A DNA stretch of 64,000 nucleotides from positions 335,001 to 399,000 of the forward strand of contig OY743173.1 of NCBI GenBank assembly GCA_963555705.1, in the 5' to 3' direction. The DNA is from Ligustrum vulgare (Eukaryota > Streptophyta > Magnoliopsida > Lamiales > Oleaceae). The notes below the pieces were generated by a model. It saw only the letters and a program-made list of their open reading frames with translations, was not told where the DNA came from and did not search any database. This document shows, piece by piece, positions 5,461 to 38,149 of the stretch; positions within the stretch are counted from its first letter, which is position 1, and each line of letters starts with the position of its first letter. The position numbers were made by a program, and so were the translations under genes.

Positions 5461-6220
5461 TGATGCAAACCACGTAGCAATTGTAGCTACGCAACCAACA
5501 AATATTGAAATCGACCCAAGAACGCCAAGAAACCACGATTTATGGATCCAATTAAAATTAATTGAACCAAGCAACCAATACAATCACAAGGATATATTGA
5601 CCTCTTGATCACAAGCAATATTAATTCTCACCGAGATTTGAACAAACAAGAATAACTTGCAAGTTCGGATTTTATTCAATGAAGAATAAGGTTGTTGAAA
5701 GCAAAATAGCATCTCAATAATAATATCAAAGTTGTGTGTATAATAATGGAAATTACATCCCTATAAACAGGGTCAAAACCTGACTAAAGAGTTTTAATTA
5801 TACTAGGTAAGAAATTCCTAAAAATAAGGAAAGAATTAAAATCCTAAAATTACACGTATTGATAATTACGGCCGTGACCAATTTCTTTACGGCCAGAAGA
5901 AGCTCTCTGTTTAACAGTTATGGTCATGAAACATATTTTTACGGCCGTAAGTCATATTTTCTGAAAATCATAATTTAACCCGAGGCTGCATTACGGCCGT
6001 AATATTTGTAAGTTACGGCCGTAAACCCAATTCTTCAAAATTTCAGTTTTTCCGCAGTAGACTTGTTACGGCCGCAAGAATTATAGGTTACGGCCGTAAT
6101 TCTTGAAATTTCACAATGTTCTTCGACGGCTTGAATGAGGTTGATCCACTCATCGTTTTGGCTCAGTCCCAACATGGAACTTGCTTCTTTTGATGACACG
6201 AACATTGTTTTGGCCATTGT

Positions 6221-9159
6221 TGTAGCGCCCCGAGTTCCGTATACCCGATTCACTACGTCATTTTCTGTCTAAATTTTTCGAATAATATTTTTGCGGAAGA
6301 AATAATTGAAATTCATTTTTGGCAACATTAAATAAACTGTAATGGCCGCTAAAATTGAAAACATTTATGAAACCATTTGAAATAGTAAATCGAACCATTA
6401 ATATTGTAAAGAAATTGCCAATATCATAATTTCTCAAATAAATGAACTTCTCTAAATTATTCGATTATTTGGAAAATACGGAAATCATTAACGTCAAACT
6501 TTCAACCGTTCAACGATTATTGCCACCATCATTCATCGCTCGCCACCGTCTCCGAAATCTGCAAAACTGTTAAAAAGTAGGGTGAGTATTTCATGGGGGA
6601 AATACTCAGTAGACTCATCGCAAATTAATTTAATTTATAAGATGATTAAACACATAAATCCCGGCTCTTTATAAAACGGGCATTGATAGAGCTTCTTTAT
6701 AAAACTGCTCTTGATAAAACTCATATTGTGCATTACAGCACGGGACATATTTTGCAAATCATAGGCTCTTTGAAAACAGCTCTTTGAAAACCATATACTT
6801 ATAAAAATATTTTAATTATGCCAAGCATAATTTCTTTTGAAAGCATAACATAAGATATGATTGAAATCCTCATAAACATAAATAGACACAAGAACTTTAC
6901 CGAACTTAGGTGGCAAGAATTCTTATGCAGTAAAATCATAATAACAGTAAGTTTTCATCATAACATAGGATAAGATCGAAATCCTCATAAATATAAGAAT
7001 TTTACCGAACTTAGGTGGCAAGAATTCTTATGTAGTAAGTCATAATAACAGTAAGATCATAATAACAGTAAGATCATAATAACAATAAGTATACCAAAAC
7101 ATAATTCATGAAATTCATAGGGATCATTTCCATCATAACATAAGATAGGATCGAAATCCTCATAAACATACGCGACAGGAATTTTACCGAACTTAGGTGG
7201 TAAATCCTCATAAACATATGGAAAGACAGGAATTTTACCGAACTTAGGTGGTAAATCCTCATAAACTTATGGAGACACAGAATTCTACCGAACTTAGGTG
7301 GTAAGAATTCTTATGTGCATAGCAATGATCCAAAACATATAAAACATTATCGTAAAAACATAGGGTATACTTACTTTTCATAAAAACATAAAGTATATTT
7401 ACTTTTCATAAAAACATACTTGTTTTTCTTAAAAATTGACTTTCACAAGTCACATGACATTTATATGAAATCATAATTTAAATCAATTAATAAGTGCGAG
7501 TCTACCTCAAATCCGACGAGTGCAAAGTTGAGCGGGAATGACTTCAATTTCTTTAAATTCTCCGTACGCTTCGTCTTAGCCAATAAGTCACTTTAGTATA
7601 TCGAATATATAGTTCAAAATGATAAATTATAATTTGAGGACTAAAATTGATGTTTTGAAAGTTGAGGGACTAAAATGAATACTTTTGAAAGTTCAGGGAC
7701 TAAAATAGATATTTTGAAAGTTAAGGGACTAAAATGAATACTTTTAAAACTTGGGCTTAAAAGTAAATCAGCAGGTACTGAAATAAAAGAGTTTAAAGTT
7801 AAAGGGCTGAAGTAAATCATTTTAAAGCTTTGAGGCTGAAATGGATGAGTTTAAAACAGTAGGGACTGAATTAAAACAATTTAAAACATCAGGGACTGAT
7901 TTGCAAATTCTGGAAATAAATAATATATCATTCAGATCTTTTCTCTCTCTCTCATAACTCACTCACTCTCTCACGATCTCTCGCTCGATTCACTCTCTCT
8001 CTCAACCTCTCTTCTCATCCGATCCGACTGGAGAAGGGCTCTTCCAGCCGGCGATATGATCGGCGAAACGCCGGCGCAAGGTAGAGGCGTGCAGCGGACA
8101 GGTATTGGTTCAGATTTTTGAGGGATTTGTTGCGATTTTGAGTGCGAGACCGAGGCTAAAACAGTGGCTAAAATCACGATTTCCGGTGGTAGAAAATCGG
8201 TCAGCGCAGTCGGGGTCGAAGTAAGTAACTGGGTAATTGATTTTCTTGGGTTTTTGGGTTTGATTTGGGTTTGGGCAGCGAAGGGTACGAAGATGGTGAA
8301 CGGTGAGGGCTCTGCAGGTTTGTGTGGTTGGGGTCAGCCGGTAGTACAAACTGGCCGTGGTGGTGACTGTCAATTACTTTGGTGATTTGAAGGTGGCGGT
8401 TTGAGTGGCTCAGATGCTTGGTTGAGCAGGGGTTGTAGGTGGAGGCTTGGGTTTGGTTGGCTGCGGATGGTTGCTACTTGATTCGGTGATGATGATTCCT
8501 GGTGAAGATTCTGCAGACTTGATTTTGGCTGGTCGTGGAAGAGTCATGGTGGTGGCTGCTGTTGGACTGAAAGCAGCGTTTTCAAAATTTGGTTCTTGGG
8601 TGATTGGTGGTGACTGGATTGAAGGATTGTGCTGTGATGGTGGATTGGTGATGATAAGGATCAGAATGTGGTGGTGTTGGACTGTGGCCTGGAAACAGGG
8701 GTTGCAGTGGTGGTGTTTGATTCTGATGATTGGTGGTTGGTTCATTTGTGTTGTGGTTGTGGCTTGATTTGGAGTGGCAAGGTTAATGGCAGTCGTGAGG
8801 TTGGTGGAGATTGCAGTGAAGTGGTTCGGTTGTGAGGGATGGTTTCTGCAGGCTTGATGGTTTCTGATCGAGGAGGTGATGGCAGAGTGATGGACTGTGG
8901 TTGCACTCGTCTGGGATGGAGATGGAGCTTGGTGCAGGTGATGAAGATGTATGCTTATATATATTGTATTGTGGAATCTAAGTACATGGAAGTGTGAGTT
9001 GTGCCATGAGTATTGAAATGAAGATGGGGTAGATGATGATAATGATGAAGATGCTTTGCTTTGGTGTTTGTATAATGAGATGGAATATGAAATAGTAGCG
9101 ACACGATTTTCTAAATATTAAAATAATTATTTATTGCATAAAAATTCTGGATCGCTATA
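6221..9159 (-). repeat. LOG element 1 left LTR (3' LTR)
   Basis: 2939 bases, begins TGTAGCGCCCCGAG and ends GGATCGCTATA. Contents include repeated ACCGAACTTAGGTGG words at 6895-7310, a run of degenerate GGGACTAAAAT repeats at 7630-7900, a CT-rich tract at 7930-8020 and a GT-rich stretch at 8200-8950. The predicted frames inside it (for example 8447-8767) are compositional and repeat exactly in the other LTR, so I do not call them genes. Confidence 0.95.
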
Positions 9160-9740
9160 ATCTTACCTCCTTAAAATAATTTCGTCCTCGAAATTAAACT
9201 TACTTAATCTTATAATTTCTGAATACTTAATCAGAATCTCTTCTTCTTATCATCGAATATTCTCAAAATAATCAAAACAATTCCTGAATATTTTCTCTAC
9301 GTAAAATACCCAAACATATCAACATAATATCATCAACTTATCTTTTCAATATTTGTAACCCAAAATTCAGTAAACAAATATCTCCCAAAACTAAGATTCT
9401 ATACTTAAATGTCACCACATTTCCTGCAAAGTATTTCTTTCACTTGTATATACGTATGAATTCTGATTCAATACGGTACTCATTTTACTTTTGTATCATC
9501 ACACTATACCAAGATTATCATTATTAAAACAAAATATCAGTACCCATAATCCAAGAAAATATTCCAAATCTTCAATCAAATCTCCTTTATCGATAAAATT
9601 TAACAGCGCATTACTTCTTGTCTCCTCTTATCATTAAAATAATCCTGCGCTTTCTTGCTGGTCATAACATCACGCGGATTCACTCAGATCCTTTGCGCTT
9701 TTAAATAGTTCATGCTGGGAAGAGGTTGAATCATCAAACA
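9160..9740. promoter_or_regulatory. LOG element 1 polypurine tract and upstream region of the first gene
   Basis: Bases 9160-9174 read as the element's polypurine tract on the minus strand (AAGGAGGTAAGAT). The remaining 550 bases are AT-rich and non-coding. A TATA-like TTTTAAATAG lies at 9699-9708, about 33 bases upstream of the ATG at 9741, and is kept in LOG element 2 at the same place. The same TTTAAATAG core precedes the LOG gene, so the two genes seem to have separate, similar promoters. The very short distance to the ATG would leave a leader of only about 10 bases. Confidence 0.45.
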
Positions 9741-10292
9741 ATGGATATCATCCTTTCTAACATTCGCAAGTATTATTCCAGTCTTCCTATGAATGATCTG
9801 AGAAAGATCTATAGAATAAGGCTCGAAAGATTGAGGTTGCTAATGGCTCATGATATTCCAGAAGATGTTCGCTGGTTGATAGAAGCAAAGGTTCGACTAT
9901 CTGGTGAATTACCATCAACATTTCCAAAACATATGCCTGGTTTAGGAAAAAGCACGTTCGCAAAGAAACGAAGAGCAAAAAGACTGGGTGGTTGCTACAA
10001 ATGTGCTCGTTGGAACTGTAATACACGTTGCAAATCAGTAGGATATTCTTCTACTAATCGGGATGATAAAATCGAATTCATAAAGGGTGGACTGAGTAAG
10101 GAGTCTTTGGATGATATTCGACTGACTCTTGAGACGCACCCAAGTGGTTATGTACAACGTGAACTTCTCTCCTTATACGCTCAGTTTAACGAGGACAAAA
10201 ATCGTTATAGTCTCCAAAATATAATATCGAAAGATCCTGTTTGCCAGTCTGTTTTACAAAATGAGGCTTCTGGCAGTTCAGCAATGATATAA
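9741..10292 (+). CDS. Basic four-cysteine protein resembling plant-virus nucleic-acid-binding proteins
   Basis: 183 residues from the ATG at 9741. An upstream TTG-initiated reading from 9726 adds only five residues and lacks an ATG, so I start at 9741. The N-terminal half is helical and basic (LRKIYRIRLERLRLLMAH). The centre has a very basic stretch, KSTFAKKRRAKRL at residues 70-82, followed at once by C85-x2-C88-x4-C93-x3-C97. A polar tail ends the protein. A basic run directly before a compact Cys cluster is the pattern of the small nucleic-acid-binding or silencing-suppressor proteins of carla-, viti- and related plant viruses (family recollection, not searched). If correct, this protein could bind RNA or counter silencing, but this is inferred. 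It lies 299 bases upstream of LOG and is antisense to the element. The copy in LOG element 2 has the same cysteines and basic run but a nonsense codon. Confidence 0.75.
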   Translation: MDIILSNIRKYYSSLPMNDLRKIYRIRLERLRLLMAHDIPEDVRWLIEAKVRLSGELPSTFPKHMPGLGKSTFAKKRRAKRLGGCYKCARWNCNTRCKSVGYSSTNRDDKIEFIKGGLSKESLDDIRLTLETHPSGYVQRELLSLYAQFNEDKNRYSLQNIISKDPVCQSVLQNEASGSSAMI

Positions 10293-10591
10293 GGTAAATC
10301 TTTTTAAAATATTTTGCTGCTTTCTTTCACGCGTTTTGGAAATAAAATATATTTTCCTTTCTCGAGGTTTGATAAAGCTGGAAATAAATATTTAATCGCC
10401 GAAAGATGACAGCCTCGATACGATAAAAATATTCAAAAGTGGGCTGATTTTGTCAAAAGTAAATCTTTACTTTTTCAGAATCAATCAAAAACAGTAAATT
10501 TTTCCGGCTTTAAATAGTCAAACATATTTCATAGTTCAGGCATCCCAAAATCACATCTTCTTCGTAAGTTTTCTCTTCTATACTATCAAAG
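10293..10591 (+). promoter_or_regulatory. LOG gene promoter region in element 1
   Basis: Spacer between the two genes. A TATA-like CTTTAAATAGTC at 10508-10519 lies about 80 bases before the LOG ATG, giving room for a leader of roughly 45-50 bases. The last 70 bases (TTCATAGTTCAGGCATCCC… to the ATG) are almost unchanged in LOG element 2, whereas the middle of the spacer carries substitutions and indels. The conserved box and leader suggest a working start region. Confidence 0.5.
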
Positions 10592-11245
10592 ATGGAAGCA
10601 CCAAAACTTCGACAAATCAAAACTATTTGTGTATTTTGTGGATCAAAAGTAGGGAAAGGCTTCGGTTATCTAGAAGCGGCTGTAGATCTTGGAAAGAAAC
10701 TGGGGGAAAAAGGTATCACTCTTGTGTATGGGGGTGGTAGCAGTGGTCTAATGGGTTGTGTTTCCCAATCTGCTCTTGCAGAGAAATCAAAAGTAATCGG
10801 TGTTATACCTGTCCCTTTGGTAGATGTTGCAGGCAAAACACGAGGGCATGAAGTTCAAACTTTATCCATCCATGAACGCATAACTTGTATGTTATATGGT
10901 TCTGATGCCTTTATAGCCCTGCCCGGAGGTTTTGGTACCTTAGAAGAAATTTTTAACATTACCTCGTGGGCTCAACTAGATCTCCATACTAAGCCTATTG
11001 GGCTTCTGAATGTTAACAATTTCTTTGATGGTTTGTTAACCTTTCTTGATTATGCTGTGGAACAGGGATTCATCTCTCCATTTTCCAGAAGGCTTCTTAT
11101 TTCTGCTCCTACTATTGATGAACTACTGGATAAGCTGCAGTCATATATCTCAATACAAGATCCAGCAGGAGTTAAGATAGATTGGTCGCAAGGAAGGGGA
11201 ATCAAGCGAAAATGGAGTCCGGTTAATGTAAACTTAACTCTTTGA
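10592..11245 (+). CDS. LOG: LOG-type cytokinin riboside 5'-monophosphate phosphoribohydrolase, retroelement-borne
   Basis: 217 residues with no introns, about the usual length of plant LOG enzymes, which release free-base cytokinin from cytokinin nucleotides in the cytosol. Seen in order: Rossmann start ICVFCGSKVG (12-21), nucleotide loop VYGGGSSGLMG (45-55), HER at 94-96 with the conserved Arg96, and LPGGFGTLEE (110-119) with the catalytic-type Glu119. WAQLDLHTKPIGLLNV follows. The usual HERKAEMA segment reads HERITCML, so the Lys is lost, and one residue is missing after EEIF relative to typical plant LOGs. Host LOG genes have several introns, so an intronless copy points to capture from an mRNA. 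It lies antisense in a young LTR element, downstream of the basic Cys protein. Activity is likely but unproven. Confidence 0.93.
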   Translation: MEAPKLRQIKTICVFCGSKVGKGFGYLEAAVDLGKKLGEKGITLVYGGGSSGLMGCVSQSALAEKSKVIGVIPVPLVDVAGKTRGHEVQTLSIHERITCMLYGSDAFIALPGGFGTLEEIFNITSWAQLDLHTKPIGLLNVNNFFDGLLTFLDYAVEQGFISPFSRRLLISAPTIDELLDKLQSYISIQDPAGVKIDWSQGRGIKRKWSPVNVNLTL

Positions 11246-11255
11246 ATCTTAGAAT

Positions 11256-11467
11256 AGGTGGGGGTAGAGTACGGAGTATTCTCACTCTCGAGACACCCCT
11301 CCATTTACTAGGATTTCCTTCATGTTTAAATCTTGTGTGTACTTCAAAGATTCCAGGTGGTAGATTACGGAGTATTCTTACTCTCGAAACACACCTCTTT
11401 GAAGGTTTCTTTATTTCCTCAAAAGATCAGAGGTGGTAGGATACGGCTACTCCGGAAACACATCTCT
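11256..11467 (+). ncRNA. Three tandem stem-loop units after the LOG stop codon
   Basis: Units at 11256-11301, 11355-11398 and 11429-11467 share the plan: G-rich arm, TACGG, a small inner hairpin, CGAGAC or GAAACAC, then the complementary arm. Examples are AGGTG…CACCT in unit 2 and AGAGGTG…CACATCTCT in unit 3, with G·T tolerance. The inner hairpin is AGTATTCTTACT in unit 2 but CGGCTACTCCG in unit 3, which keeps pairing with a different sequence. All three recur in LOG element 2 (35993-36206). This looks like a structured 3' UTR. The function is unknown. Confidence 0.55.
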
Positions 11468-11565
11468 CATTCTGAGGATCTTTCCATGTTTTATCTCTTA
11501 TGCTTTCGTGTGTTTCATGTATTCCTTTCCAGTGTGACTCTTGTGTGTTCTCCTTATGAGAAAAT

Positions 11566-11571
11566 AATAAA
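11566..11571 (+). terminator. AATAAA poly(A)-signal-like site after LOG
   Basis: AATAAA lies about 320 bases after the LOG stop and just after the stem-loop units. It is kept in LOG element 2 at about 36303-36308. It is a reasonable 3' end for a plus-strand LOG transcript. Confidence 0.4.
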
Positions 11572-12432
11572 ATCTCTGCTATCATCTACTAAATCTCGTT
11601 TGTGATGTAAATAATCTTGCATGTCTAACCTTAATTCCTTTAGTGGATGCTTATCATATTATGCTCTTAATTCCAAATGATAAAATTCTGGATAGAGTCT
11701 CCCTTGTAATTTGGACTTATTCCAAACCATAAGCATACTTCATAACTCACAATAATAAATAACTCCACATTTGATCACAACGATCTAAAAATATTGAAAA
11801 TAATTCTAACACTTCAATATCATCAAAATATCCCATAATTCAATTCATAATTCCTCAACATAGAAATTTCAAATCATATTTTTTTTTTCAATATCACAAT
11901 ATTACTTCCTTCCATACCTTAATTGGCTCAAAAGTTACTCATACTTATAAATATATGCCATAAATCATATTCTCAAAATTTATTCACAAAGCCAAACTTC
12001 ATAATAAATTTCTCTTCAACATAGAGGCATAATAAATTAACTCAACATAATATCCATTACTTAATTCTTAATAAAATCATATTATTCCCATTATGCTCAA
12101 CACTCGTTTTCTTTAAAAAAAAAATTTCTCATAATCATACATTAGAGCATATAAGTTATGACAAAGCATAACAACATCATTATTTTCGAAGAAATACATT
12201 CTTATTTCTCATAAATCATAAGTATCCGAAATACTCTTCATTCTTTCTCATAAATTAGTAAAATGAGTATTCGAAATACTGAAATAACTTTAAACATCAT
12301 AAACTTCTTTACCTCGGAGTTGGTGGAACGAAATGATGGCAGTGGCAATCTTCATAAATAAAAATCTTATAATGGAAAATATTTCTTAAAATTCTTTTTG
12401 AAAATTTTACCAGTCTACAGAAACGCAGACTA
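11572..12432. other. LOG element 1 AT-rich non-coding interior
   Basis: About 860 bases of AT-rich sequence full of TCATAA-type words, with no ORF. On the element's own strand this is the leader directly after the primer site. There is no trace of gag. Parts (GATCACAACGATCTAAAAAT, AATTCATAATTCCTCAACAT) are shared with LOG element 2. Confidence 0.5.
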
Positions 12433-12444
12433 GCTCTGATACCA
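12433..12444 (-). other. LOG element 1 primer-binding site (tRNA-iMet type)
   Basis: GCTCTGATACCA on the plus strand, three bases from the right LTR. It is a perfect 12-base match in sense to TGGTATCAGAGC. Confidence 0.92.
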
Positions 12445-12447
12445 ACT

Positions 12448-15386
12448 TGTAGCGCCCCGAGTTCCGTATACCCGATTCACTACGTCATTTTCTGTCTAAA
12501 TTTTTCGAATAATATTTTTGCGGAAGAAATAATTGAAATTCATTTTTGGCAACATTAAATAAACTGTAATGGCCGCTAAAATTGAAAACATTTATGAAAC
12601 CATTTGAAATAGTAAATCGAACCATTAATATTGTAAAGAAATTGCCAATATCATAATTTCTCAAATAAATGAACTTCTCTAAATTATTCGATTATTTGGA
12701 AAATACGGAAATCATTAACGTCAAACTTTCAACCGTTCAACGATTATTGCCACCATCATTCATCGCTCGCCACCGTCTCCGAAATCTGCAAAACTGTTAA
12801 AAAGTAGGGTGAGTATTTCATGGGGGAAATACTCAGTAGACTCATCGCAAATTAATTTAATTTATAAGATGATTAAACACATAAATCCCGGCTCTTTATA
12901 AAACGGGCATTGATAGAGCTTCTTTATAAAACTGCTCTTGATAAAACTCATATTGTGCATTACAGCACGGGACATATTTTGCAAATCATAGGCTCTTTGA
13001 AAACAGCTCTTTGAAAACCATATACTTATAAAAATATTTTAATTATGCCAAGCATAATTTCTTTTGAAAGCATAACATAAGATATGATTGAAATCCTCAT
13101 AAACATAAATAGACACAAGAACTTTACCGAACTTAGGTGGCAAGAATTCTTATGCAGTAAAATCATAATAACAGTAAGTTTTCATCATAACATAGGATAA
13201 GATCGAAATCCTCATAAATATAAGAATTTTACCGAACTTAGGTGGCAAGAATTCTTATGTAGTAAGTCATAATAACAGTAAGATCATAATAACAGTAAGA
13301 TCATAATAACAATAAGTATACCAAAACATAATTCATGAAATTCATAGGGATCATTTCCATCATAACATAAGATAGGATCGAAATCCTCATAAACATACGC
13401 GACATGAATTTTACCGAACTTAGGTGGTAAATCCTCATAAACATATGGAAAGACAGGAATTTTACCGAACTTAGGTGGTAAATCCTCATAAACTTATGGA
13501 GACACAGAATTCTACCGAACTTAGGTGGTAAGAATTCTTATGTGCATAGCAATGATCCAAAACATATAAAACATTATCGTAAAAACATAGGGTATACTTA
13601 CTTTTCATAAAAACATAAAGTATATTTACTTTTCATAAAAACATACTTGTTTTTCTTAAAACTTGACTTTCACAAGTCACATGACATTTATATGAAATCA
13701 TAATTTAAATCAATTAATAAGTGCGAGTCTACCTCAAATCCGACGAGTGCAAAGTTGAGCGGGAATGACTTCAATTTCTTTAAATTCTCCGTACGCTTCG
13801 TCTTAGCCAATAAGTCACTTTAGTATATCGAATATATAGTTCAAAATGATAAATTATAATTTGAGGACTAAAATTGATGTTTTGAAAGTTGAGGGACTAA
13901 AATGAATACTTTTGAAAGTTCAGGGACTAAAATAGATATTTTGAAAGTTAAGGGACTAAAATGAATACTTTTAAAACTTGGGCTTAAAAGTAAATCAGCA
14001 GGTACTGAAATAAAAGAGTTTAAAGTTAAAGGGCTGAAGTAAATCATTTTAAAGCTTTGAGGCTGAAATGGATGAGTTTAAAACAGTAGGGACTGAATTA
14101 AAACAATTTAAAACATCAGGGACTGATTTGCAAATTCTGGAAATAAATAATATATCATTCAGATCTTTTCTCTCTCTCTCATAACTCACTCACTCTCTCA
14201 CGATCTCTCGCTCGATTCACTCTCTCTCTCAACCTCTCTTCTCATCCGATCCGACTGGAGAAGGGCTCTTCCAGCCGGCGATATGATCGGCGAAACGCCG
14301 GCGCAAGGTAGAGGCGTGCAGCGGACAGGTATTGGTTCAGATTTTTGAGGGATTTGTTGCGATTTTGAGTGCGAGACCGAGGCTAAAACAGTGGCTAAAA
14401 TCACGATTTCCGGTGGTAGAAAATCGGTCAGCGCAGTCGGGGTCGAAGTAAGTAACTGGGTAATTGATTTTCTTGGGTTTTTGGGTTTGATTTGGGTTTG
14501 GGCAGCGAAGGGTACGAAGATGGTGAACGGTGAGGGCTCTGCAGGTTTGTGTGGTTGGGGTCAGCCGGTAGTACAAACTGGCCGTGGTGGTGACTGTCAA
14601 TTACTTTGGTGATTTGAAGGTGGCGGTTTGAGTGGCTCAGATGCTTGGTTGAGCAGGGGTTGTAGGTGGAGGCTTGGGTTTGGTTGGCTGCGGATGGTTG
14701 CTACTTGATTCGGTGATGATGATTCCTGGTGAAGATTCTGCAGACTTGATTTTGGCTGGTCGTGGAAGAGTCATGGTGGTGGCTGCTGTTGGACTGAAAG
14801 CAGCGTTTTCAAAATTTGGTTCTTGGGTGATTGGTGGTGACTGGATTGAAGGATTGTGCTGTGATGGTGGATTGGTGATGATAAGGATCAGAATGTGGTG
14901 GTGTTGGACTGTGGCCTGGAAACAGGGGTTGCAGTGGTGGTGTTTGATTCTGATGATTGGTGGTTGGTTCATTTGTGTTGTGGTTGTGGCTTGATTTGGA
15001 GTGGCAAGGTTAATGGCAGTCGTGAGGTTGGTGGAGATTGCAGTGAAGTGGTTCGGTTGTGAGGGATGGATTCTGCAGGCTTGATGGTTTCTGATCGAGG
15101 AGGTGATGGCAGAGTGATGGACTGTGGTTGCACTCGTCTGGGATGGAGATGGAGCTTGGTGCAGGTGATGAAGATGTATGCTTATATATATTGTATTGTG
15201 GAATCTAAGTACATGGAAGTGTGAGTTGTGCCATGAGTATTGAAATGAAGATGGGGTAGATGATGATAATGATGAAGATGCTTTGCTTTGGTGTTTGTAT
15301 AATGAGATGGAATATGAAATAGTAGCGACACGATTTTCTAAATATTAAAATAATTATTTATTGCATAAAAATTCTGGATCGCTATA
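12448..15386 (-). repeat. LOG element 1 right LTR (5' LTR)
   Basis: 2939 bases, the same length as the left copy and nearly identical to it, with three base differences seen by eye. The minus-strand start reads TATAGCGATCC, related to the TGTAGCGACC start of LOG element 2 and the TGTAGCAACC start of the solo LTR at 24126. Confidence 0.95.
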
Positions 15387-15512
15387 ATTGTTTCTTGTAC
15401 TACCTTGTCCATTGCTTCGTTGGTCCTCTTTGTTTGCAATCGAGTCATCGGTCCTCCCTTGATCATCAACGGATCTTTGTGCGGGCTTGTATTCATGGTC
15501 TGGATCACATCA

Positions 15513-16817
15513 TCCCCTCCCTCTTCGAAAGGATTCGACCTCGAATCTGTACCTGCATCAAACGGAGATAGATCAGAAAAAATAAAAGTAGCCGAAACAT
15601 TATACTCACCAGGAAGATCTAGTTTATAGGCATTGTTGTTGATCCTTTCAATCACTTGGAATGGGCCATCTCCTCGCGGTTGTAACTTTAATTTGCGTTG
15701 TTTTGGAAACCGCTCATTCTTCAAATGTACCCAAACCCAATCACCAGGTTCAAATATGACGTCTTTTCTTCCTTTGTTAGCCTGCAATGCATAATGTTCA
15801 TTTTTTTTTTCAATCGCCATCCTCACCTTGTCGTGGAGTGATTTAACCATCTCAGCCTTTTTCTTTCCATCTAAACTACTACGTTCATTCACAGGTAAAG
15901 GAATTAAATCCAATGGAATTAGCGGATTAAAACCATAAACAATCTCAAATGGCGAACAAGAAGTAGTAGAATGTATAGCCCTATTATATGCAAATTCAAT
16001 AAATGGTAAACACTCTTCCCAATTTTTCAGATTTTTATTGATTATGGTGTGCAACAATTGAATCATTGTCTTATTTACTACCTCGGTCTGTCCATCGGTT
16101 TGTGTGTGACAAGTTGTAGAGAAAAGTAGTTTTGTTCCCAGTTTGTTCCACAAGACTCTCCAAAAATGACTAAGGAACTTAACATCCCTATTCGAGACTA
16201 TACCATTAGGAACCCCATGTAAGCGCACGACTTCCCTAAAGAAAATATCAGTTATGTTGGTAGCATCGTCAGTTTTGTGGCATGGTATGAAATGTGCAAT
16301 TTTGATAAAGCGATCTACTACCACAAAATTCGAATCTCTTCCCTTCTTAGTCCTAGGTAATCCAAAAACAAAATCCATAGAGATATCGACCCAAGGTTCA
16401 CTAGGGACAGGTAAAGGCATAAATAATCCATGGGGTTTAATCCTAGATTTAGCCTTCTTGCAAGTAATGCATCTACTACAAACCCGAACCACATCAATCT
16501 TCATCTTAGGCCAATAGAATTTCACTTAAGATTTCGATGGTCTTCTTAACCCCAAAATGACCCATTAAACCTCCACTATAGGCCTCTCTCACAAGTAACT
16601 CTCTCATTGAACACCTAGGGACACACAATTTATTTTCTCGGAATAAATAATCATCATGTTTAAAGAATCTATCCACAGCCCCCTTACCACATGAATCATA
16701 AATACTAGAAAAGTCCGGATCATTAGCATACATGTCCTTAATATATTCAAATCCAAGCAATTTAGCATTCAAAGAAGTTAAAAGAACATACCTTCGAGAC
16801 AATGCATCTGCCGCCAC
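15513..16817 (-). pseudogene. Element A integrase
   Basis: The first frame (16817-16506) ends the RNase H connection (AADALSRR) and carries the [17 protein letters not shown] zinc-binding helix. The second (from 16525) gives [19 protein letters not shown] of the HHCC domain. The DDE core follows, with [52 protein letters not shown] and [14 protein letters not shown], then a C-terminal SH3-like segment ([11 protein letters not shown]). There is no chromodomain that I can see. The frame continues through the polypurine tract into the LTR and, because of LOG element 1, terminates inside foreign sequence at 15338. Confidence 0.88.
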
Positions 16818-17517: not shown

Positions 17518-18261
17518 TTATACATGCTCATTCAAAGTTTTACTATATATCAAGATATCATCGATGTAAACTGCAATGAATTTACCTATAAATGCACATA
17601 AAACATGATTCATTAAACGCATAAAAGTGCTAGGTGCATTAGAAAGTCCAAACGGTATAACTAACCATTCATACAAGCCATATTTATTTTGAAAAGCAGT
17701 TTTCCACTCATCTCCTTCCTTAATTCGAATTTGATGATAACCACTCTTAAGATCAATTTTACTAAATATGCTAGAGCCTTGCAATTCATCGAACATATCA
17801 TCTAACCTAGGAATAGGATGACGATACTTTACCGTTATGTTGTTGATGGCTCTACAATCAACACACATTCTCCAAGTCCCGTCCTTTTTGGGTACAAGTA
17901 ACACAGGTACGGCACATGGACTCATGTTCTCCCTTATGTACACCTTGCTCATCAATTCCTCCACTTGCTTTTGAAGCTCCTTCGTCTCCTCAGGATTACT
18001 CCTATAAGCGGGACGGTTTGGAATGACTGCTCCAGGTAAAAAATCAATCTGATGCTCAATACCTCGAATGGGTGGCAACCCACTAGGTATATCCTCCAGA
18101 AATACATCGTCAAATTCCAACAAGAGAGAAATAGCCAAACTAGGGAGGGGTATGTTAGCTTCATCAAGGGTAAGGAATGATTCCTTGTACAATAAAAGGA
18201 CCATTGGTCGATTTTCCATAAAAGCCTTCTTGATTTCACTACTTTTGGCATAGAAGCTCAC
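17518..18261 (-). pseudogene. Element A reverse transcriptase
   Basis: A 247-residue open segment contains the ordered RT blocks: [20 protein letters not shown], then [62 protein letters not shown], and the catalytic YIDDILIYS near the end. Catalytic aspartates are all present. The neighbouring frames are broken, so the element is probably not autonomous now. Confidence 0.9.
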
Positions 18262-18384
18262 TCTTGGTTGTTCTTTTCTGGCACTCTTCGCTCCCTCTCC
18301 TTTTTCTGAGGTATGTACCCCAATACTCTTTTTTTCTCTCGCCTATCCTTTTTCTGGAGTCGTGGCTCCAGCCCTCTTTTCCTC

Positions 18385-20315: not shown

Positions 20316-20327
20316 GCTCTGATACCA
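20316..20327 (-). other. Element A primer-binding site (tRNA-iMet type)
   Basis: The plus strand reads GCTCTGATACCA, the reverse complement of TGGTATCAGAGC. It lies two bases inside the right LTR, which fixes the element's orientation. Confidence 0.9.
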
Positions 20328-20329
20328 AA

Positions 20330-21210
20330 TGATGCAAACCACGTAGAAATTGTAGCTACGCAACCCACAAATATTAAAATCGACCCAAGAACGCCAAGAA
20401 ATCACGATTTATGGATCCAATTAAAATTAATTGAACCAAGCAAACAATACAGTCCCAAGGATATATTGACCTCTTGATCACAAGCAATATTAATTCTCAC
20501 CAAGATTTGAACAAACAAGAATAACTCGCAAGTTCGGATTTTATTCAATGAAGAATAAGGTTGTTGAAAGCAAAATATCATCTCAATAATAATATCAAAG
20601 TTGTGTGTATAATAATGAAAATTACATCCCTATAAATAGGGTCAAAACCTGACTAAAGAGTTTTAATTATTCTAGGTAAGAAATTCCTAAAAATAAGGAA
20701 AGAATTAAAATCCTAAAATTACATGTATTGATAATTACGGCCGTGACCAATTTCTTTACGGCCAGAAGAAGCTCTCTGTTTAACAGTTACGGTCGTGAAA
20801 CATATTTTTACGGCCGTAAGTCATATTTTCTGAAATTCATAATTTAACTCGAGGCTGCATTACGGTCGTAATATTTGTGAGTTACGGCCGTAAACCCAAT
20901 TCTTCAAAATTTCAGTTTTTCCGCAGTAGACTTGTTACGGCCGCAAGAATTATAGGTTACGACCGTAATTCTTGAAATTTCACAATGTTCTTCAACGGCT
21001 TGAATGAGGTTGATCCACTCGTCGTTTTGGCTCGGTCCCAACATGGAACTTGCTTCTTTTGATGACACGAACATTGTTTTGTCCATTGTTTCTTGTACCA
21101 GCATGTCCATTGCTTCGTTGGCCCTCTTTGTTTGCAATCGAATCATCGGTCCTCCCTTGATCATCAATGGATCTTTGTGCGGGCTTGTATTCATGGTCTG
21201 GATCACATCA
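20330..21210 (-). repeat. Element A 5' LTR (right)
   Basis: 881 bases, uninterrupted, begins TGATGCAAACC and ends ATCACATCA followed by the TSD CGTCC. It contains the same cluster of ACGGCCGTAA-type palindromes (about 20738-20970) as the left copy. On the minus strand it contains the terminal part of the pol-derived frame, including [18 protein letters not shown]. Confidence 0.92.
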
Positions 21211-31550: not shown

Positions 31551-32219
31551 TTGATGTTTCTAGAAGGTTCCAGAAGATTGCGGAATATGGTGTGACGACC
31601 CGAATTCTCGACCATTCGAGTGCCACTAAAAATGACTCATATCATATTATCGAGACTTAAATAGTAATGTAAAATTATTCAAAAGAATAATTAGAATCCC
31701 ATAATTTTATTTGTGAATAAAAATAGAACATAATTTTCTTACATAAAGTTCAACATAATTATCTCATCAATCTTAACCACTTTTGCCACTTCCATGTTGA
31801 CCGCCTCGAACCTTCAATTATCTGAAAATGGTAAATATCGTGGAGTGAGATTTATAAAATCCCAGTAAGTATACCAAGCATAAATTTTCTTTTGAAAGCA
31901 TATGGATCATTTTCATCATAACATAGGATAGGATCGAAATACTCATAAACATATGGAGATACAAGAATTTTACCGAACTTAAATGGCAAGAATTCTTATG
32001 TGTAGCGCTACTAAACTCCGGTCCCCTTAGCATAATCATAAACATATCATATGGAACCCATAACAATCTTGTGAGATTGATTTCATAGCAATGATCCAAA
32101 CATTTTCATAAAAACATAAGATATACTTACTTGTCATAAAAACATACTTACTTTTCATAAAAACATAAGGTGTATTTACCTTTCATAAAAACATACTTAC
32201 TTTTCATAAAAACATAAGA

Positions 32220-32620
32220 TATACTTACATTTCATAACAACATACTTAATTTTCATAAAAACATAAGATATACTTACATTTCATAACAACATACTTAATT
32301 TTCATAAAAACATAAGATATACTTACATTTCATAACAACATACTTAATTTTCATAAAAACATAAGATATACTTACATTTCATAACAACATACTTAATTTT
32401 CATAAAAACATAAGATATACTTACATTTCATAACAACATACTTAATTTTCATAAAAACATAAGATATACTTACATTTCATAACAACATACTTAATTTTCA
32501 TAAAAACATAAGATATACTTACATTTCATAACAACATACTTAATTTTCATAAAAACATAAGATATACTTACATTTCATAACAACATACTTAATTTTCATA
32601 AAAACATAAGATATACTTAC
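32220..32620. repeat. 49-base minisatellite, eight copies
   Basis: The unit contains ACTTACATTTCATAACAACA and TACTTAATTTTCATAAAAAC. Copies recur at 49-base spacing from about 32228 to 32571. The equivalent array in the other LTR runs from about 38787 to 39081 with seven copies. Confidence 0.95.
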
Positions 32621-32847
32621 CTTTTAAAAGATTAAAATGAAGTGTAGTAGTAAATGGACCAAAACTTTCTTGACCACCTTGAATTTCTCTTACTTGTGGA
32701 TTTTGTCAAGAGGTTGGAAATAAGTGTATATGTGTAGAGTTGTGTGTAAAAGAGATGGGTTTAAATAGATGTATAAAGTTGGCATATTGTAAACATAATC
32801 ATTCAATTCTATTAATTTTAACACATCCTTTTCTTAAAGTAAAGCAC

Positions 32848-33225
32848 CATTCATATACTTTTCCATATTTATACAAATATTATGCTCTTCATGATTATAT
32901 ATAATGGAGTCTTATCAATCATTCATATACTTTTCCATATTTATACAAATATTATGCTCTTCATGATTACATATAATGGAGTCTTATCAACCATTCATAT
33001 ACTTTTCCATATTTATACAAATATTATGCTCTTCATGATTACATATAATGGAATCTTATCAACCATTCATATACTTTTCCATATTTATACAAATATTATG
33101 CTCTTCATGATTATATATAATGGAGTATATAAATCATTCATATACTTTTCCATTTTTTATACAAATATTATGCTCTTCATGATTACATATAATGGAGTAT
33201 ATAATTCATTCATATACTTTTCCAT
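32848..33225. repeat. 72-base tandem repeat in LOG element 2 LTR
   Basis: Copies start near 32848, 32920, 32992, 33064 and 33136, each with CATTCATATACTTTTCCATA and TATTATGCTCTTCATGATTA. The same array is present in the right LTR from about 39357. Confidence 0.9.
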
Positions 33226-33561
33226 ATTTATTAAATTAAGATTCTCATAATTATTATATATAATGGAACCTCTCATGCTTGCATATATTTTCTTAATTTC
33301 AATAATAAAAATAATTTTTGTATAAATAAATATTGGGATAACATTGAATTAAGTACTTGGACTTAATATACTTTAAATCAAGAGAATGGAAATATTTTTA
33401 GAATTTCGGAATTTAATTTAAAATCGAACGATCTCGATTATTTCTTGACTTGGCTATACGAATACGTCGCGGCGTTAACTTAATAAAAATGGGTGAAATA
33501 GTAGCGACACGATTTTCTATTAAAATAATTATTAATCGCGTAAAAATTCTTGGTCGCTACA

Positions 33562-34480
33562 AACTTACCCCCTTAAAATAATTTCGTCCTCGAAATTAAA
33601 CTTACTTGATCTTATGATTTCTGAACACTTAATCAGAATCTCTTCTCTTCTTCTCTTAGGTAGTATCATTGCTACTATATTTAACCCACTGGACTTTGAC
33701 TAAATGCATATCTTTGTTTTTCTTAAAAACATGGACTTTTCTATCAATAATAGACATATGTGTCTACTCATAAATTCTGACTCAAAAGGAAAATTCCCAA
33801 TCGTATGTGATATTTCATCATGTCTTGTAGTACTCATGTAACCTGTCACTTATCATCGTATCATGTGACCTCAAATATTCGTATTAATATCTCTAAAATT
33901 TCAATAAATCTTTACTAACATATCATACCATAATAATTAGTCATTTCTTCTTATCACCAAATATCCCAAAGTAAATAAAATGGTTACCTGAATATCCCCT
34001 ATGTAACATATCCAAACATATTATTCACATATCAACATAATCATCAGTTTATCTTTCCAATATTTGTAACCCAAAATTTCTGCAAAATTCAATAAACAAA
34101 TATCTCCCAAATAATTAAAATTCTTAACTCAAATATCATAACATTTCCCGTAAGGTATTCCTTTCACTTGCACAAACTTATTAATCCTGATTCAATACAG
34201 TCCTTATTTCACTTTCACGTATCCCCGTATTATTTCTATACCTTGATTATTATATCAAAATATCAGTACCCAAAATCCAAGAAAATATTCCATATCTCAA
34301 ATCCCGTCATCATCAAATCTTCCTTTTATCAAGAAAGTAAACGGCGTATAAACTCTTGTTCCCTCTTTTCCATTATTCTATTCCGCGCTTTCTTGCTGGA
34401 ATCAATATCACGCGGATTCCCTCCGATCCTTAATGCTTTTAAATAGTTCATGCTGGGAAGAGGTTAGATCCATCAAAAAC
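33562..34480. promoter_or_regulatory. LOG element 2 polypurine tract and upstream region of the Cys gene
   Basis: Bases 33562-33576 read AAGGGGGTAAGTT on the minus strand, a polypurine tract. The remainder is AT-rich and partly alignable with 9175-9740 but about 340 bases longer. TTTTAAATAG lies at 34437-34446, 35 bases before the ATG, at the same relative place as in LOG element 1. Confidence 0.45.
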
Positions 34481-35032
34481 ATGGATATCATTCTTACAAA
34501 CATTCACAAGTATTATTCCAGTCTTCCAATGAATGATCTGAGGAAAATTTATCGAATAAGACTCGAAAGATTGAGGTTGCTGATGGCTCATGGTGTTTCA
34601 GAAGATGTTCGCTAGTTGATCGAAGCAAAGGTTCGACTATCTGGTGAATTACCTATGACATTTCCAAAGCACATGCCTGGTTTAGGCAAAAGCACCTTCG
34701 CAAAGAAACGAAGAGCAAAAAGGCTGAATGGTTGCTACAAATGTGCTCGTTGGAACTGTGATACTCGTTGCAAAACAGTAGGATATTCTTCTACTAATCG
34801 GGATGATAAAATCAAATTCATAAAGGGTGGACTGAGTAAGGAGTCTTTGGATGATATTCGACTGACTCTTGAGACGCACCCAAGTGGTTATGTGCAACGT
34901 GAACTTCTCTCCTTATACGCTCAGTTTAACGAGGACAAAAATCGTTATAGTCTCCAAAATATAATAGCAAAAGATCCTGTTTGCCAGTCTGTTTTACAAA
35001 ATGAGGCTTCTGGCAGTTCAACAATGATATAA
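34481..35032 (+). pseudogene. Basic four-cysteine protein gene, nonsense-disrupted copy
   Basis: 183 codons aligned end to end with 9741-10292. Codon 45, Trp (TGG) in LOG element 1, is TAG here at 34613-34615. Otherwise the frame stays open. Twelve other residues differ, mostly outside the central region, and the basic run and the four cysteines (C-x2-C-x4-C-x3-C) are unchanged. One of the changes, S59M, creates an ATG at 34655, 40 bases after the stop, from which the whole basic and cysteine region could still be read. The nonsense change is a transition that fits deamination on the opposite strand. Confidence 0.85.
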
Positions 35033-35328
35033 GGTAAATCTCTTGATACACATTTAAAATATTTTGCTGTTTTCTTTCACGCGTTTTGGAAATAAAATAT
35101 ATTTTCCTTTCTCGAGTTTTGATAAAGCTGGAAATAAATCACCGAAAGGTGATATCTTTGGTAAAACAGTCAAAAGTTGGCCGATTTTGACAAAAGTAAA
35201 TCTTTACTTTTTCATAATCAATCAAAAACAGTAAATTTTTTCGGCTTTAAATAGCCAAACATATTTCATAGTTCAGGCATCCCAAAATCACATCTTCTTC
35301 GTAAGTTTTCTCTTCTATACTATCAAAG
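35033..35328 (+). promoter_or_regulatory. LOG gene promoter region in element 2
   Basis: Spacer before the second LOG copy. The box GGCTTTAAATAGCC lies at about 35243-35256 and the following leader is nearly identical to that of element 1. The upstream part has indels relative to element 1. Confidence 0.5.
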
Positions 35329-35982
35329 ATGGAAGCACCAAAACTTCGACAGATCAAAACTATTTGTGTATTTTGTGGATCAAAAGTGGGGAAAGGCTTC
35401 AGTTATCTAGAAGCGGCCGTAGATCTTGGAAAGAAACTGGGGGAAAAAGGTATCACTCTTGTGTATGGGGGTGGTAGCAGTGGTCTAATGGGTTGTGTTT
35501 CCCAATCTGCTCTTGCAGAGAAATCAAAAGTAATCGGTGTCATACCTGTCCCTTTGGTAGATGTTGCAGGAAAAACACGAGGGCATGAAGTTCAAACCTT
35601 ATCCATCCATGAACGCATAACTTGTATGCTATATGGTTCTGATGCCTTTATAGCCCTGCCCGGAGGTTTTGGTACCTTAGAAGAAATCTTTAACATTACC
35701 TCGTGGGCTCAACTAGATCTCCATACTAAGCCTATTGGGCTTCTGAATGTTAACAATTTCTTTGATGGCTTGTTAACCTTTCTTGATTATGCTGTGGAAC
35801 AGGGATTCATCTCTCCATTTTCCAGAAGGCTCCTTATTTCTGCTCCTACTATTGATGAACTACTGGATAAGCTGCAGTCATATATCTCAATACAAGATCC
35901 AGCAGGGGTTAAGATAGATTGGTCGCAAGGAAGGGGAATCAAGCGAAAATGGAGTCCGGTTAATGTAAACTTAACTTTATGA
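35329..35982 (+). CDS. LOG: LOG-type cytokinin phosphoribohydrolase, second retroelement copy
   Basis: 217 residues, intact, no introns. It differs from the element 1 protein only at residue 25 (Ser for Gly). At the DNA level I count about 13 changed codons, 12 of them silent, including the last sense codon (TTA for CTT). All the family motifs listed for the first copy are present: GGGSSGLMG, HER at 94-96 and PGGFGTLEE. It lies 296 bases downstream of the disrupted Cys gene and antisense to LOG element 2. Retention of an open, nearly unchanged protein while its neighbour has decayed suggests LOG is the part under the stronger constraint. Confidence 0.93.
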   Translation: MEAPKLRQIKTICVFCGSKVGKGFSYLEAAVDLGKKLGEKGITLVYGGGSSGLMGCVSQSALAEKSKVIGVIPVPLVDVAGKTRGHEVQTLSIHERITCMLYGSDAFIALPGGFGTLEEIFNITSWAQLDLHTKPIGLLNVNNFFDGLLTFLDYAVEQGFISPFSRRLLISAPTIDELLDKLQSYISIQDPAGVKIDWSQGRGIKRKWSPVNVNLTL

Positions 35983-35992
35983 ATCTTAGAAT

Positions 35993-36206
35993 AGGTGGGG
36001 GTAGAGTACGGAGTATTCTTACTCTCGAGACACCCCTCTAATTTCCTAGGATTTCCTTAATGTTTAAATCTTGTGTGTACCTCAAAGGTTCCAGGTGGTA
36101 GATTACGGAGTATTCTTATTCTCGAAACACACCTCTTTGAAGGTTTCTTTATTTCCTCAAAAGGTCAGAGGTGGTAGGATACGGCTACTCCGGAAACACA
36201 TCTCTC
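35993..36206 (+). ncRNA. Three tandem stem-loop units after LOG, element 2 copy
   Basis: Units at 35993-36038, 36093-36136 and 36167-36206 correspond one to one with those of LOG element 1. In unit 2 the inner hairpin reads AGTATTCTTATT, which weakens one pair. The linkers between units vary more than the units themselves. An AATAAA follows at about 36303. Confidence 0.55.
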
Positions 36207-36308
36207 AATTTGAGGAATTTCCCATGTTGCTTTCTTTTGATTTTGCGTGTTTCATGTATTTCTTTCCAATGTGACTCTTGTGTGTTCTCCTTACGAGAAA
36301 ATAATAAA

Positions 36309-38135
36309 TATCTCTGTTATCATCTACTAAATCTCGTTTGTGATGTAAATGAATTTGCATGTCTAACCTCAATTCTCTTAGTGATTGCATACCATACTAT
36401 GCTCTTAATTCCAAACGATAAAATTCTAAGCAGAGTTTCCTTTGAAATTTGGACTTATTCAAACCGTAAGCATACTTCATAACTCACAATAATAAATAAT
36501 TCCACATTTGATCACAACGATCTAAAAATTGACCACAATTTCATCAAACTTCAATATCATAAAAAAATATTCCAGAAAATCAATTCATAATTCCTCAACA
36601 TAGAAATTTCAAATCATAGTCGTCAATATCACAATATCACTTCCTTCAATACCTTAATTGGCTCAAAAGATTACTCATACTTATATTTATAAGTCATAAA
36701 TCATATTCCCAAAATTTAATCACAAGGCCAAAATTCATAATAAATTTCTCTTCAATATAGAGGCATAATTCACTTACTCAACATAATAGCCATTACTTAA
36801 TTCCCAATAACCAAATCTTTAAATCTCTAACTTCATAATGCTTCTCATAAAAGTCTCATTAAAATCATATCACTTATAATCTTAACATCTCATAAAACTT
36901 CATAAAATTGGCTCGCTATTTCTCATTAAATCTAAATGATAGATAATCTGAACATATTTCTAATCATTTCTGTTGACTTCTCATACTTAATGCCGTTTCT
37001 AAAATCAATTATGCAAAGTCCATTTAAGGTTTATCATTTCTAAACTCGAGGACAACAATTATTTTGAAAATCATTCTTAAGTCATATTATTCCCATTATG
37101 CTCAACACCCGTTCTCTTTCTTTCTTTCCGAATTTTTTTCAGAATTGAAACTTGAAGAGTGGTACCAATAATCATCCACAGTTTTTCCTTGCTTTTAAGC
37201 AAAGGTAGTGATAAAGGGATAAATTATTGAACCGAAAATTGAAACTTGAAGAGGAAGTACTAATAACCATCCACAGTTTTTCCCTTGTTTTTACACAAAG
37301 GTAGTGATAAAGGGATAAATTATTGTACAAATTCATTATTAATTTTGTTTGTTTAATATATTATTCCATATATTTTGGGCCAAAGTTACAACCCAACTTA
37401 ATTTCTAATTGAGTCAATCTTACTAAGCTTAATATGAACCAAAATTCATATCAATATCCTCTATGTCTCATGATTCTACATTAAAATGAATAAATTAAAA
37501 TTTAGGCTTCTATCAATTCATATCATACTCAACATGTATATTTCACTTAAAGATTCATAACATATGAATATTTCATACTTAACATGTCTTAATAAAATCG
37601 TAAATGACTTGCAAAGCATATAACATACCTGGTTCGAGGAGTCAATACGTGGAGAGTGACATAGTAGAGTGATGAGTTAAAATATTTTAAAAAAAAAATT
37701 ATTATTAATCATTTCGCATCTTTACATAAGATTGGGCCTAATTAACCCAAATAAAAATTTATCGTCAAATCTTATTTTCCTTTAGTCCCCGAACTTCTAG
37801 AAATTTATCAAAGACATCAATATAAACATCATATCACTAACTAATTATATTCCATAAAATTTTCAGGACATTACAAACTCCCTTGCTTAAAATGAATTTT
37901 GTCCTTGAAATTCGCATATCAAATTTCATCATGCTTTTCAAAATCATAACCATACTTGACATGTGAAAATTCAACTTTTTTTTTTTAATAATGAATAGTG
38001 ATTTCGTTCACTGTTCATCATGAATAGCACGTCGTTTTACTGTTCACGTGAATAGTGATTTTTTTTTTTTTTTTTAATTTTTTTTTTAAAGAAATAAAAT
38101 TTCAAAAATCTACAGAATCGTTTTTAAAACTCTTT
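36309..38135. other. LOG element 2 AT-rich non-coding interior
   Basis: About 1.8 kb without ORFs, longer than the corresponding part of element 1. A pair of related segments (37145-37225 and 37230-37325) both contain ATCCACAGTTTTTCC and AGTGATAAAGGGATAAATTA, a roughly 90-base tandem duplication. Another block (37970-38070) repeats GTGAATAGTGATTT-type words. On the element's own strand this is the leader after the primer site, and no gag is left. Confidence 0.5.
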
Positions 38136-38147
38136 GCTCTGATACCA
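38136..38147 (-). other. LOG element 2 primer-binding site (tRNA-iMet type)
   Basis: GCTCTGATACCA on the plus strand, two bases from the right LTR, in the same arrangement as in LOG element 1. Confidence 0.92.
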
Positions 38148-38149
38148 AC

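Follow-up and report, generated by a model that had tools for sequence, protein, structure and literature searches.

Why does a retrotransposon without the genes for its own copying keep two intact genes of another kind, and what would their products do? The question is raised by E1, a long terminal repeat (LTR) retrotransposon of Ligustrum vulgare that lies in a 64,000-nucleotide stretch of DNA (contig OY743173.1 of assembly GCA_963555705.1, positions 335,001 to 399,000; hereafter the window, whose numbering is used throughout). The reading preferred here, to which a rough probability of 0.45 is given, is that E1 belongs to a young, high-copy LTR family lacking gag-pol in the copies read, the main cargo of which is an antisense two-gene cassette encoding a nuclear protein pair that acts on the host. 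The limits and replication signals of the element are as follows.

6221-15386, minus strand: E1, an LTR retrotransposon with two near-identical LTRs, a target-site duplication (TSD), a primer-binding site (PBS) and a polypurine tract (PPT)
6216-6220 (left) and 15387-15391 (right): TSD ATTGT, flanking E1
6221-9159, minus strand: 3′ LTR of E1, 2,939 bp, its strand taken from the orientation of PBS and PPT
12448-15386, minus strand: 5′ LTR of E1, 2,939 bp
12433-12444, minus strand: PBS TGGTATCAGAGC, complementary to initiator tRNA-Met (iMet), 3 nt off the right LTR
9160-9172, minus strand: putative PPT AAGGAGGTAAGAT, adjoining the 3′ LTR and assigned from position and composition

The LTRs of E1 differ at three positions (7178, 7435 and 8843), which, taking 1.3e-8 substitutions per site per year, corresponds to an age of roughly 40,000 years. 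The sides on which the PBS and PPT lie place E1 on the minus strand, so that both of its plus-strand open reading frames (ORFs) run antisense to the genomic RNA. These ORFs, of 183 and 217 amino acids, are far longer than any other frame of the interior, which contains no gag-pol ORF, and tblastn with the neighbouring Gypsy-type pol pieces gave no match inside E1 or inside E2, a second element of the window. The initial annotation had described a young element without gag-pol at exactly 6221-15386, with the TSD, equal-length LTRs, iMet PBS, PPT and two intact ORFs, and this reading of the structure proved exact; the antisense orientation, the TATA-like boxes listed below and the existence of cassette-less sister copies had been overlooked. 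The antisense features are as follows.

About 9636-11579 (limits approximate), plus strand: the gene cassette as a module, present or absent as a block among copies
9700-9708, plus strand: TATA-like box 1, TTTAAATAG, 41 nt 5′ of the ORF1 ATG
9741-10292, plus strand: ORF1, intact, 183 aa, viral-type nucleic-acid-binding protein
10341-10346, and another at 10383, plus strand: AATAAA after ORF1
10509-10517, plus strand: TATA-like box 2, TTTAAATAG, 5′ of the LOG ATG
10592-11245, plus strand: ORF2 (LOG), an intact single open frame, 217 aa, LOG-family protein
11246-11590, plus strand: LOG 3′ untranslated stretch, with three imperfect repeats and AATAAA at 11566

The same cassette occurs a second time in the window, between different LTRs. 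The interiors of E1 and E2 are 89% identical over 2,893 bp, the ORF pair is oriented alike in both and a PPT-like stretch of E2 resembles that of E1, while their LTRs are largely different.

31591-40071, minus strand: E2, TSD TATGG, with the cassette as in E1 and other LTRs
31591-33561 and 38150-40071, minus strand: LTRs of E2, with 0 mismatches and one 49-bp indel
34481-35032, plus strand: ORF1 copy of E2, with one in-frame stop
35329-35982, plus strand: LOG copy of E2, intact, one residue off the E1 protein

Beyond the window, its whole assembly (1.385 Gb, 51 contigs) was searched. The PBS/LTR junction, taken as 33 bases with up to 2 mismatches, has 2,346 matches (1,119 + 1,227), and the reversed control pattern has 0. 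A search with the LOG protein returned 9,447 candidates, the best 150 of which are all open and encode an identical protein; these scored matches, a lower bound, lie on contigs 1-4 only and do not include the window's own copy. The best 150 of 8,795 candidates for ORF1, spread over many contigs, comprise 113 identical proteins and 37 that are 99% alike. Twenty copies (L009-L028) were taken from the LOG matches at 10 kb each, and are thus picked for LOG identity. An iMet PBS stands 5′ of the right LTR in 19 of them and is altered in L020, the LTRs of which are of the E2 type. Counting E1 and E2 as well, 20 of the 22 elements have both ORFs open, and no pol match was obtained in any of the 20 interiors with findable limits. 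Both LTRs were located in 21 of the 22, and 17 of these 21 pairs differ at 0-3 sites, several pairs being covered in part where an LTR runs past the end of the piece; the sums of the other four (E2, L020, L022 and L024) include second matches of LTR-internal repeats.

Over its first 1.5-1.8 kb (plus strand), the window LTR matches 19 of the 20 copies at about 67-95% depending on the piece, and the remaining part, on the unique 3′ (U3) side, has matches above 150 bp in one copy only (L021, 241 bp, 100%). With one LTR half shared and the U3 side differing, recent activity seems to have come from several lineages whose U3 regions had been exchanged, and the mostly unmatched U3 sides of copies otherwise alike in the second LTR half and in the interior suggest an exchange of promoters. 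Copies of LOG and ORF1 often stand in pairs or triplets about 6.2-7.1 kb apart, approximately one LTR plus one interior (for example C2:76948967, 76955498 and 76962030; C3:28954816 and 28961568), a spacing that suggests tandem arrays with shared LTRs.

Every fifth of 100 listed junctions was then read over the place of LOG, giving 20 loci of about 1 kb each, all exact matches on contig 1 and covering LOG but not ORF1. LOG is present at 16 and absent at four. Eleven of the 16 copies are full, three are cut by the edge of the piece (L056, L063 and L066), one carries a frameshift gap (L058) and one is truncated (L049); in the latter (C1:19456166-19457166) LOG is cut short on its 5′ side by other sequence, in which a coiled-coil-like frame lies on the minus strand; this may be a nested insertion. 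Were the share of 16 in 20 to apply throughout, about 1,900 LOG-bearing copies would be present genome-wide, a rough extrapolation from exact contig-1 junctions. The possibility that the ORFs are host genes caught by chance between two LTRs is ruled out by the 2,346 junctions and the presence of LOG at 16 of the 20 sampled.

The four junction pieces lacking LOG are 94-98% alike, and two were read over 4 kb.

C1:47040801-47044800 and C1:61042581-61046580: cassette-less sisters L067 and L068

Their interiors match E1 through 9635 and resume at 11580 in one and 11624 in the other, with 0.85-0.89 kb of other sequence replacing the cassette block. This filler contains no frame above 60 codons and no match to ORF1, LOG or pol, apart from one 18-residue match at E 0.06. 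As the block is absent as a whole, the cassette is not needed in cis for amplification.

Where the cassette is present, it behaves as a unit. Among the 20 copies, pairwise identity is at least 94% in most 50-bp windows from 9691 to 11590, dipping in the inter-ORF spacer (down to 74%) and at 11491, and outside the block it is 60-92% upstream and 80-94% downstream. The sequence TTTAAATAG occurs twice in the E1 interior, once before each ORF. Its distance to the ORF1 ATG is 41 nt in 21 copies and 43 in E2, and that to the LOG ATG is 82-84 nt in 22 of 22, while the distance between ORF1 and LOG varies from 848 to 922. The AATAAA signals are conserved as well. From this arrangement we infer that each ORF would have a core promoter of its own and be transcribed in the direction opposite to the genomic RNA made from the LTR. 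The E1 family carries antisense ORFs (aORFs) in the sense used for other plant elements, opposite to the genomic RNA and conserved across copies. The LOG 3′ stretch (11246-11590) is conserved nearly as closely as the coding sequence in the copies compared. Three imperfect repeats resembling AGGTGGTAGATTACGGAGTATTCTTACTCTCGAAACACACCTC lie at 11246-11480 and are kept in the copies; the fold energy of these repeats was not significant (z -0.86) and RNA structure was discarded as evidence.

The antisense orientation and the conserved 3′ stretch both fit an explanation in which the antisense transcript matters rather than the proteins, forming double-stranded RNA with the genomic RNA and giving rise to small RNAs that tune copy number, a role discussed for aORFs in part of PMC7264820. 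The distribution of changes in the coding sequences makes this improbable. By codon position (first, second, third), changes number 13, 12 and 31 in ORF1 and 4, 0 and 26 in LOG, the LOG figures coming from a set selected by LOG identity; and in the copies chosen through ORF1 rather than LOG, the LOG protein stays identical despite synonymous changes.

Selection on the two proteins was estimated from several samples. Between E1 and E2 (Nei-Gojobori), LOG has 12 synonymous and 2 nonsynonymous changes (omega 0.05) and ORF1 19.7 and 14.3 (omega 0.185). The ratio of nonsynonymous to synonymous polymorphism (pN/pS) of ORF1 is 0.178 over 20 copies. That of LOG, 0.008 in the LOG-picked copies, is biased, and the ORF1-chosen and junction samples are fairer; the multi-copy comparison of ratios left out L019, which shares the ORF differences of L018 but differs in its flanks, and L020, with a gapped ORF1. 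At 18 loci chosen by ORF1, 15 LOG copies are full and encode an identical protein, with 17 distinct synonymous and 0 nonsynonymous changes; the omitted loci are L031, L032 and L046, where the piece ends inside LOG, L031 also having a 1-nt gap. In the 11 full copies of the junction sample there are 0 stops, five proteins are identical, five are one residue off and one is two off, and 27 distinct synonymous changes stand against 6 nonsynonymous ones (p ~4e-12 against neutrality). Both proteins are under purifying selection, which is strong for LOG. Capture of genes by plant transposable elements, LTR elements included, has been described (in a section of PMC7264820), and it could be supposed that the ORFs are captured gene pieces copied along without function. 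This is contradicted and ruled out by the selection results, and relatives in several eudicots also speak against it, leaving neutral passengers scarcely credible.

ORF1 matches two Pfam families of plant-virus proteins above their cut-offs, Viral_NABP at E 3.9e-7 (30.7 bits, cut-off 23) and Carla_C4 at E 4.6e-6 (27 bits, cut-off 20.9); the only Pfam families found in the two ORFs are PF05515/PF01623 and PF03641/PF18306. A basic stretch, KKRRAKR, precedes a C-x2-C-x4-C-x3-C cluster. The search for relatives of ORF1 returned 346 proteins, of which the 120 listed all have PF01623, 106 of these 120 contain the C-x2-C-x4-C-x3-C pattern, and proteins of Orobanche, Striga, Populus, Xanthoceras and Acer are included. 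The profile match and the basic stretch before the cysteine cluster are shared with the nucleic-acid-binding proteins of carlaviruses and vitiviruses (PF01623, PF05515); unlike these, ORF1 sits in an LTR element, is 183 aa long and has no relative found in IMG/VR. A PDB search gave a best E of 0.24. The Pfam profiles point to a probable kinship of ORF1 with flexivirus nucleic-acid-binding proteins, by transfer in either direction. Among such proteins, that of a chrysanthemum carlavirus is described as a transcription factor that brings about hyperplasia and suppresses silencing weakly, and that of sweet potato chlorotic fleck virus as a silencing suppressor (both in a portion of PMC12172455). 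An endogenous betaflexivirus replicase-like sequence of cucumber, in the account given in part of PMC3136472, was considered and set aside, as it is another type of gene than ORF1.

The second protein belongs to the LOG family by Pfam (1.3e-33), by its PDB match to Arabidopsis At2g37210 (1.6e-57) and by TIGR00730 (163 bits, cut-off 96), and it retains the PGGxGTxxE motif and the catalytic residues R96 and E119. The initial annotation had named it a LOG enzyme and its partner a viral-like basic cysteine protein, and both assignments are borne out, the latter by the domain search above; its expectations that the ORFs are kept and that the cassette extends beyond the E1 locus likewise agree with the purifying selection in the E1/E2 pair and sampled copies, with E2 and with LOG at 16 of 20 sampled family junctions. 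Its description of the enzyme as cytokinin-activating does not fare as well. In CgLOG, the catalytic residues are Arg99 and Glu122 and the pocket is formed by Met96, His97, Lys100, Glu125 and Trp129, with Lys100 and Glu125 lining the adenine/prenyl pocket (in a portion of PMC4979012). The corresponding window pocket is I93, H94, I97, N122 and W126, with two of five residues retained (His97 and Trp129). Conservation was compared between the best 120 of 7,230 relatives, many of them paralogues from few species and, for other species, counted as element-type by sequence, and the best 120 of 7,997 host proteins, retrieved with a single Arabidopsis LOG query and mostly of LOG1/LOG3 type. The catalytic Arg is kept in 112 and the catalytic Glu in 118 of the 120 relatives; Lys100 is kept in 8 and Glu125 in 7, vs 120 of 120 host LOGs for both, and His97 in 73.

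The element-type proteins also end differently. An LxLxL motif within the last ten residues is found in 92 of the 120 relatives, and a basic cluster followed by LxLxL in 89, vs none of the 120 host LOGs in either case. In the structure model, residues 202-217 almost all have a predicted local distance difference test score (pLDDT) below 50, as expected of a disordered end. The 32 element-type and 18 host proteins placed in a tree fall on either side of a single branch with 100/100 support, the bootstrap being not fully settled. Plant LOG cytokinin riboside 5′-monophosphate phosphoribohydrolases share the fold family, the PGGxGTxxE motif and the catalytic Arg/Glu with the element LOG, which differs from them in two pocket changes, one open frame, the C-terminal tail and a separate branch.

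A working cytokinin-activating enzyme, by which the element raises cytokinin and promotes cell division, would account for the family membership, the catalytic dyad kept in most relatives, the retention of His97 and Trp129 in the window copy and the strong purifying selection. This explanation is nevertheless unlikely: Lys100 and Glu125, invariant in the host set, are replaced in nearly all relatives, the window protein scores 109 bits against the cut-off of 300 of the NCBIfam cytokinin-LOG equivalog (a model for bacterial and archaeal annotation), and a new C-terminal tail has been added. Cytokinin activation is doubtful because the two pocket positions are replaced and most relatives have the basic and LxLxL tail, and an altered nuclear LOG that would act with the viral-type protein appears the likelier function. 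The changed pocket with its retained catalytic residues, and the basic cysteine motif of nucleic-acid-binding type in ORF1, would also suit a pair in which ORF1 is a nucleocapsid-like chaperone of the element RNA and LOG an enzyme with a new nucleotide substrate, with no reprogramming of the host; such a pair leaves the basic and LxLxL tail unexplained and does not fit with cassette-less sisters having multiplied too, and is rather more unlikely.

Under the preferred reading of a nuclear protein pair acting on the host, the kept catalytic dyad, the changed pocket and the basic tail with its motif resembling those of ethylene-responsive element binding factor-associated amphiphilic repression (EAR) indicate that the LOG-like protein would have a nuclear role, probably through the TOPLESS co-repressor, with release of cytokinin as a secondary possibility. 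For the ORF1 protein, binding of nucleic acid is predicted, and in the manner of related carlavirus proteins it could be a suppressor of silencing or a transcription factor. Between them, the two would create conditions in the cell under which helper enzymes could copy the family in trans, and cassette-less copies would be free riders. A precedent for the tail is HaRxL21, a downy-mildew effector whose C-terminal LMLTL binds TOPLESS (in part of PMC7446885); it too is a foreign protein active in plant cells with an LxLxL-type C-terminal motif, however it is an unrelated protein of an unrelated organism, and binding of TOPLESS by the LOG tail is a conjecture by analogy. In a related explanation, possible though doubtful, the cassette is an effector operon, in which an antisense virus-type nuclear regulator and a nuclear LOG, no longer a hormone enzyme, that recruits TOPLESS or uses a new substrate would reprogramme host silencing or cell state in the manner of a pathogen effector pair, allowing helper enzymes to copy the element, with the cassette-less sisters as parasites of this shared benefit.

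Several points weigh against a host-directed nuclear pair. On the side of ORF1, a scan of IMG/VR for relatives gave 43 pattern matches, none of them confirmed, the structure model is of low confidence (pLDDT 65), and this weak model has no match in BFVD at E <= 0.001, a carlavirus protein standing at rank 4 with E 4.9; the viral kinship therefore rests on the profiles. On the side of LOG, Met96 and Trp129 of the pocket are kept in 103 and 119 of the 120 relatives, and the window tail KRKWSPVNVNLTL reads VxLxL rather than LxLxL. For HaRxL21, LxLxL alone is reported to be insufficient, and changes of its leucines abolished binding (same portion of PMC7446885). The tests of LTR context covered this genome, and LOG is absent from four of the 20 sampled junctions. 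The family is presumably moved by a helper element, and no such helper was found. The weak point of the mechanism is the link by which selection on a product that works in trans would reach its source copy. One way would be for the antisense mRNA to pair with the genomic RNA, such that a suppressor translated from the antisense mRNA would protect its source locus.

Relatives in other species bear on whether the two genes travel together. Three Orobanche gene models (P0015, P0018 and P0020) fuse ORF1 and then LOG pieces; their PGGxGTxEE motif is altered, two of the three have the basic and LxLxL tail, and they may be pseudogenes. Three pairs of ORF1 and LOG relatives lie on contigs of equal listed size (8,723, 4,511 and 2,128), which suggests linkage of the two genes without proving it. 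Over six presumed pairs (the window, the three equal-size-contig pairs, Populus and Xanthoceras), the ORF1 and LOG distances are correlated with r 0.91, a value reached by 1 of 720 relabellings, the observed one, n being small.

Two parts of this system are known already, namely aORFs in plant LTR elements and a LOG domain in Gypsy elements. A YgdH/LOG domain is reported in Gypsy elements of Citrus sinensis, C. clementina and Populus trichocarpa (in a section of PMC9289625, citing Steinbauerova et al. 2011), which resemble the E1 family in having a LOG-family domain within a plant LTR element. Those consensuses were found via reverse transcriptase (RT), whereas in the E1 family gag-pol is absent from the copies read and LOG is paired, and the Gypsy section of that paper mentions neither a viral-type partner nor the orientation of the domain, a tail or an altered pocket. 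The same source describes, in the part concerned, orchid Ty3/Gypsy elements with a 2-oxoglutarate dioxygenase (N6-methyladenosine, m6A, demethylase) domain; these likewise are plant Gypsy elements that acquired an extra enzyme domain, but the enzyme is another, the consensuses bear RT and no second gene is described there. Conserved aORFs of Retand, Grande and RIRE2, of unknown function, also lie antisense to LTR elements, and Grande gene23 is said to have a promoter of its own that directs its transcription (parts of PMC7264820 and PMC11963269). According to the same parts, most of these elements keep gag-pol, unlike the E1 family, and those of Retand encode mainly TRP28 proteins; Pfam found no TRP28 domain, the mark of Retand, in ORF1 or LOG. 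The words LOG, cytokinin, nucleic acid binding and carlavirus are absent from the main text of PMC11963269. In the literature searched (titles and abstract openings, for some lists the best-ranked entries, with most subscription journals outside), no description was found of the ORF1-LOG pair or the LOG tail, nor of a viral-type partner, an antisense pair in a gag-pol-less element, a changed pocket or cassette presence/absence. Against the earlier statement that no described element with this pair is known stands the LOG domain in Gypsy elements, which is in print.

The role of antisense ORFs for plant retrotransposons is posed as an open question in part of PMC7264820. Recognisable protein families, strong selection, near-identical copies and natural cassette-less sisters make it directly testable here. 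If the reading of a host-directed pair is true, the host-directed effectors used by a mobile element include one of viral type and one of hormone-enzyme type, and part of the LOG-like genes in plant genome annotations may belong to transposons. Many tailed LOG relatives of Reevesia pubescens (rows P0154-P0233) are annotated as hypothetical proteins, and one of Diospyros lotus (P0125) is annotated as a host LOG, LOGL10; going by sequence, these are possibly transposon genes.

As to the setting of E1, a 761-bp repeat pair of 96.7% identity lies at 5461-6221 and 20330-21090 of the window. An iMet-type PBS stands at 20316, and between the repeats there are RT/integrase ORFs at 15338-16525 and 17518-18342. 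E1 looks to have inserted into this Ty3-like element, close to the 3′ LTR of the latter.

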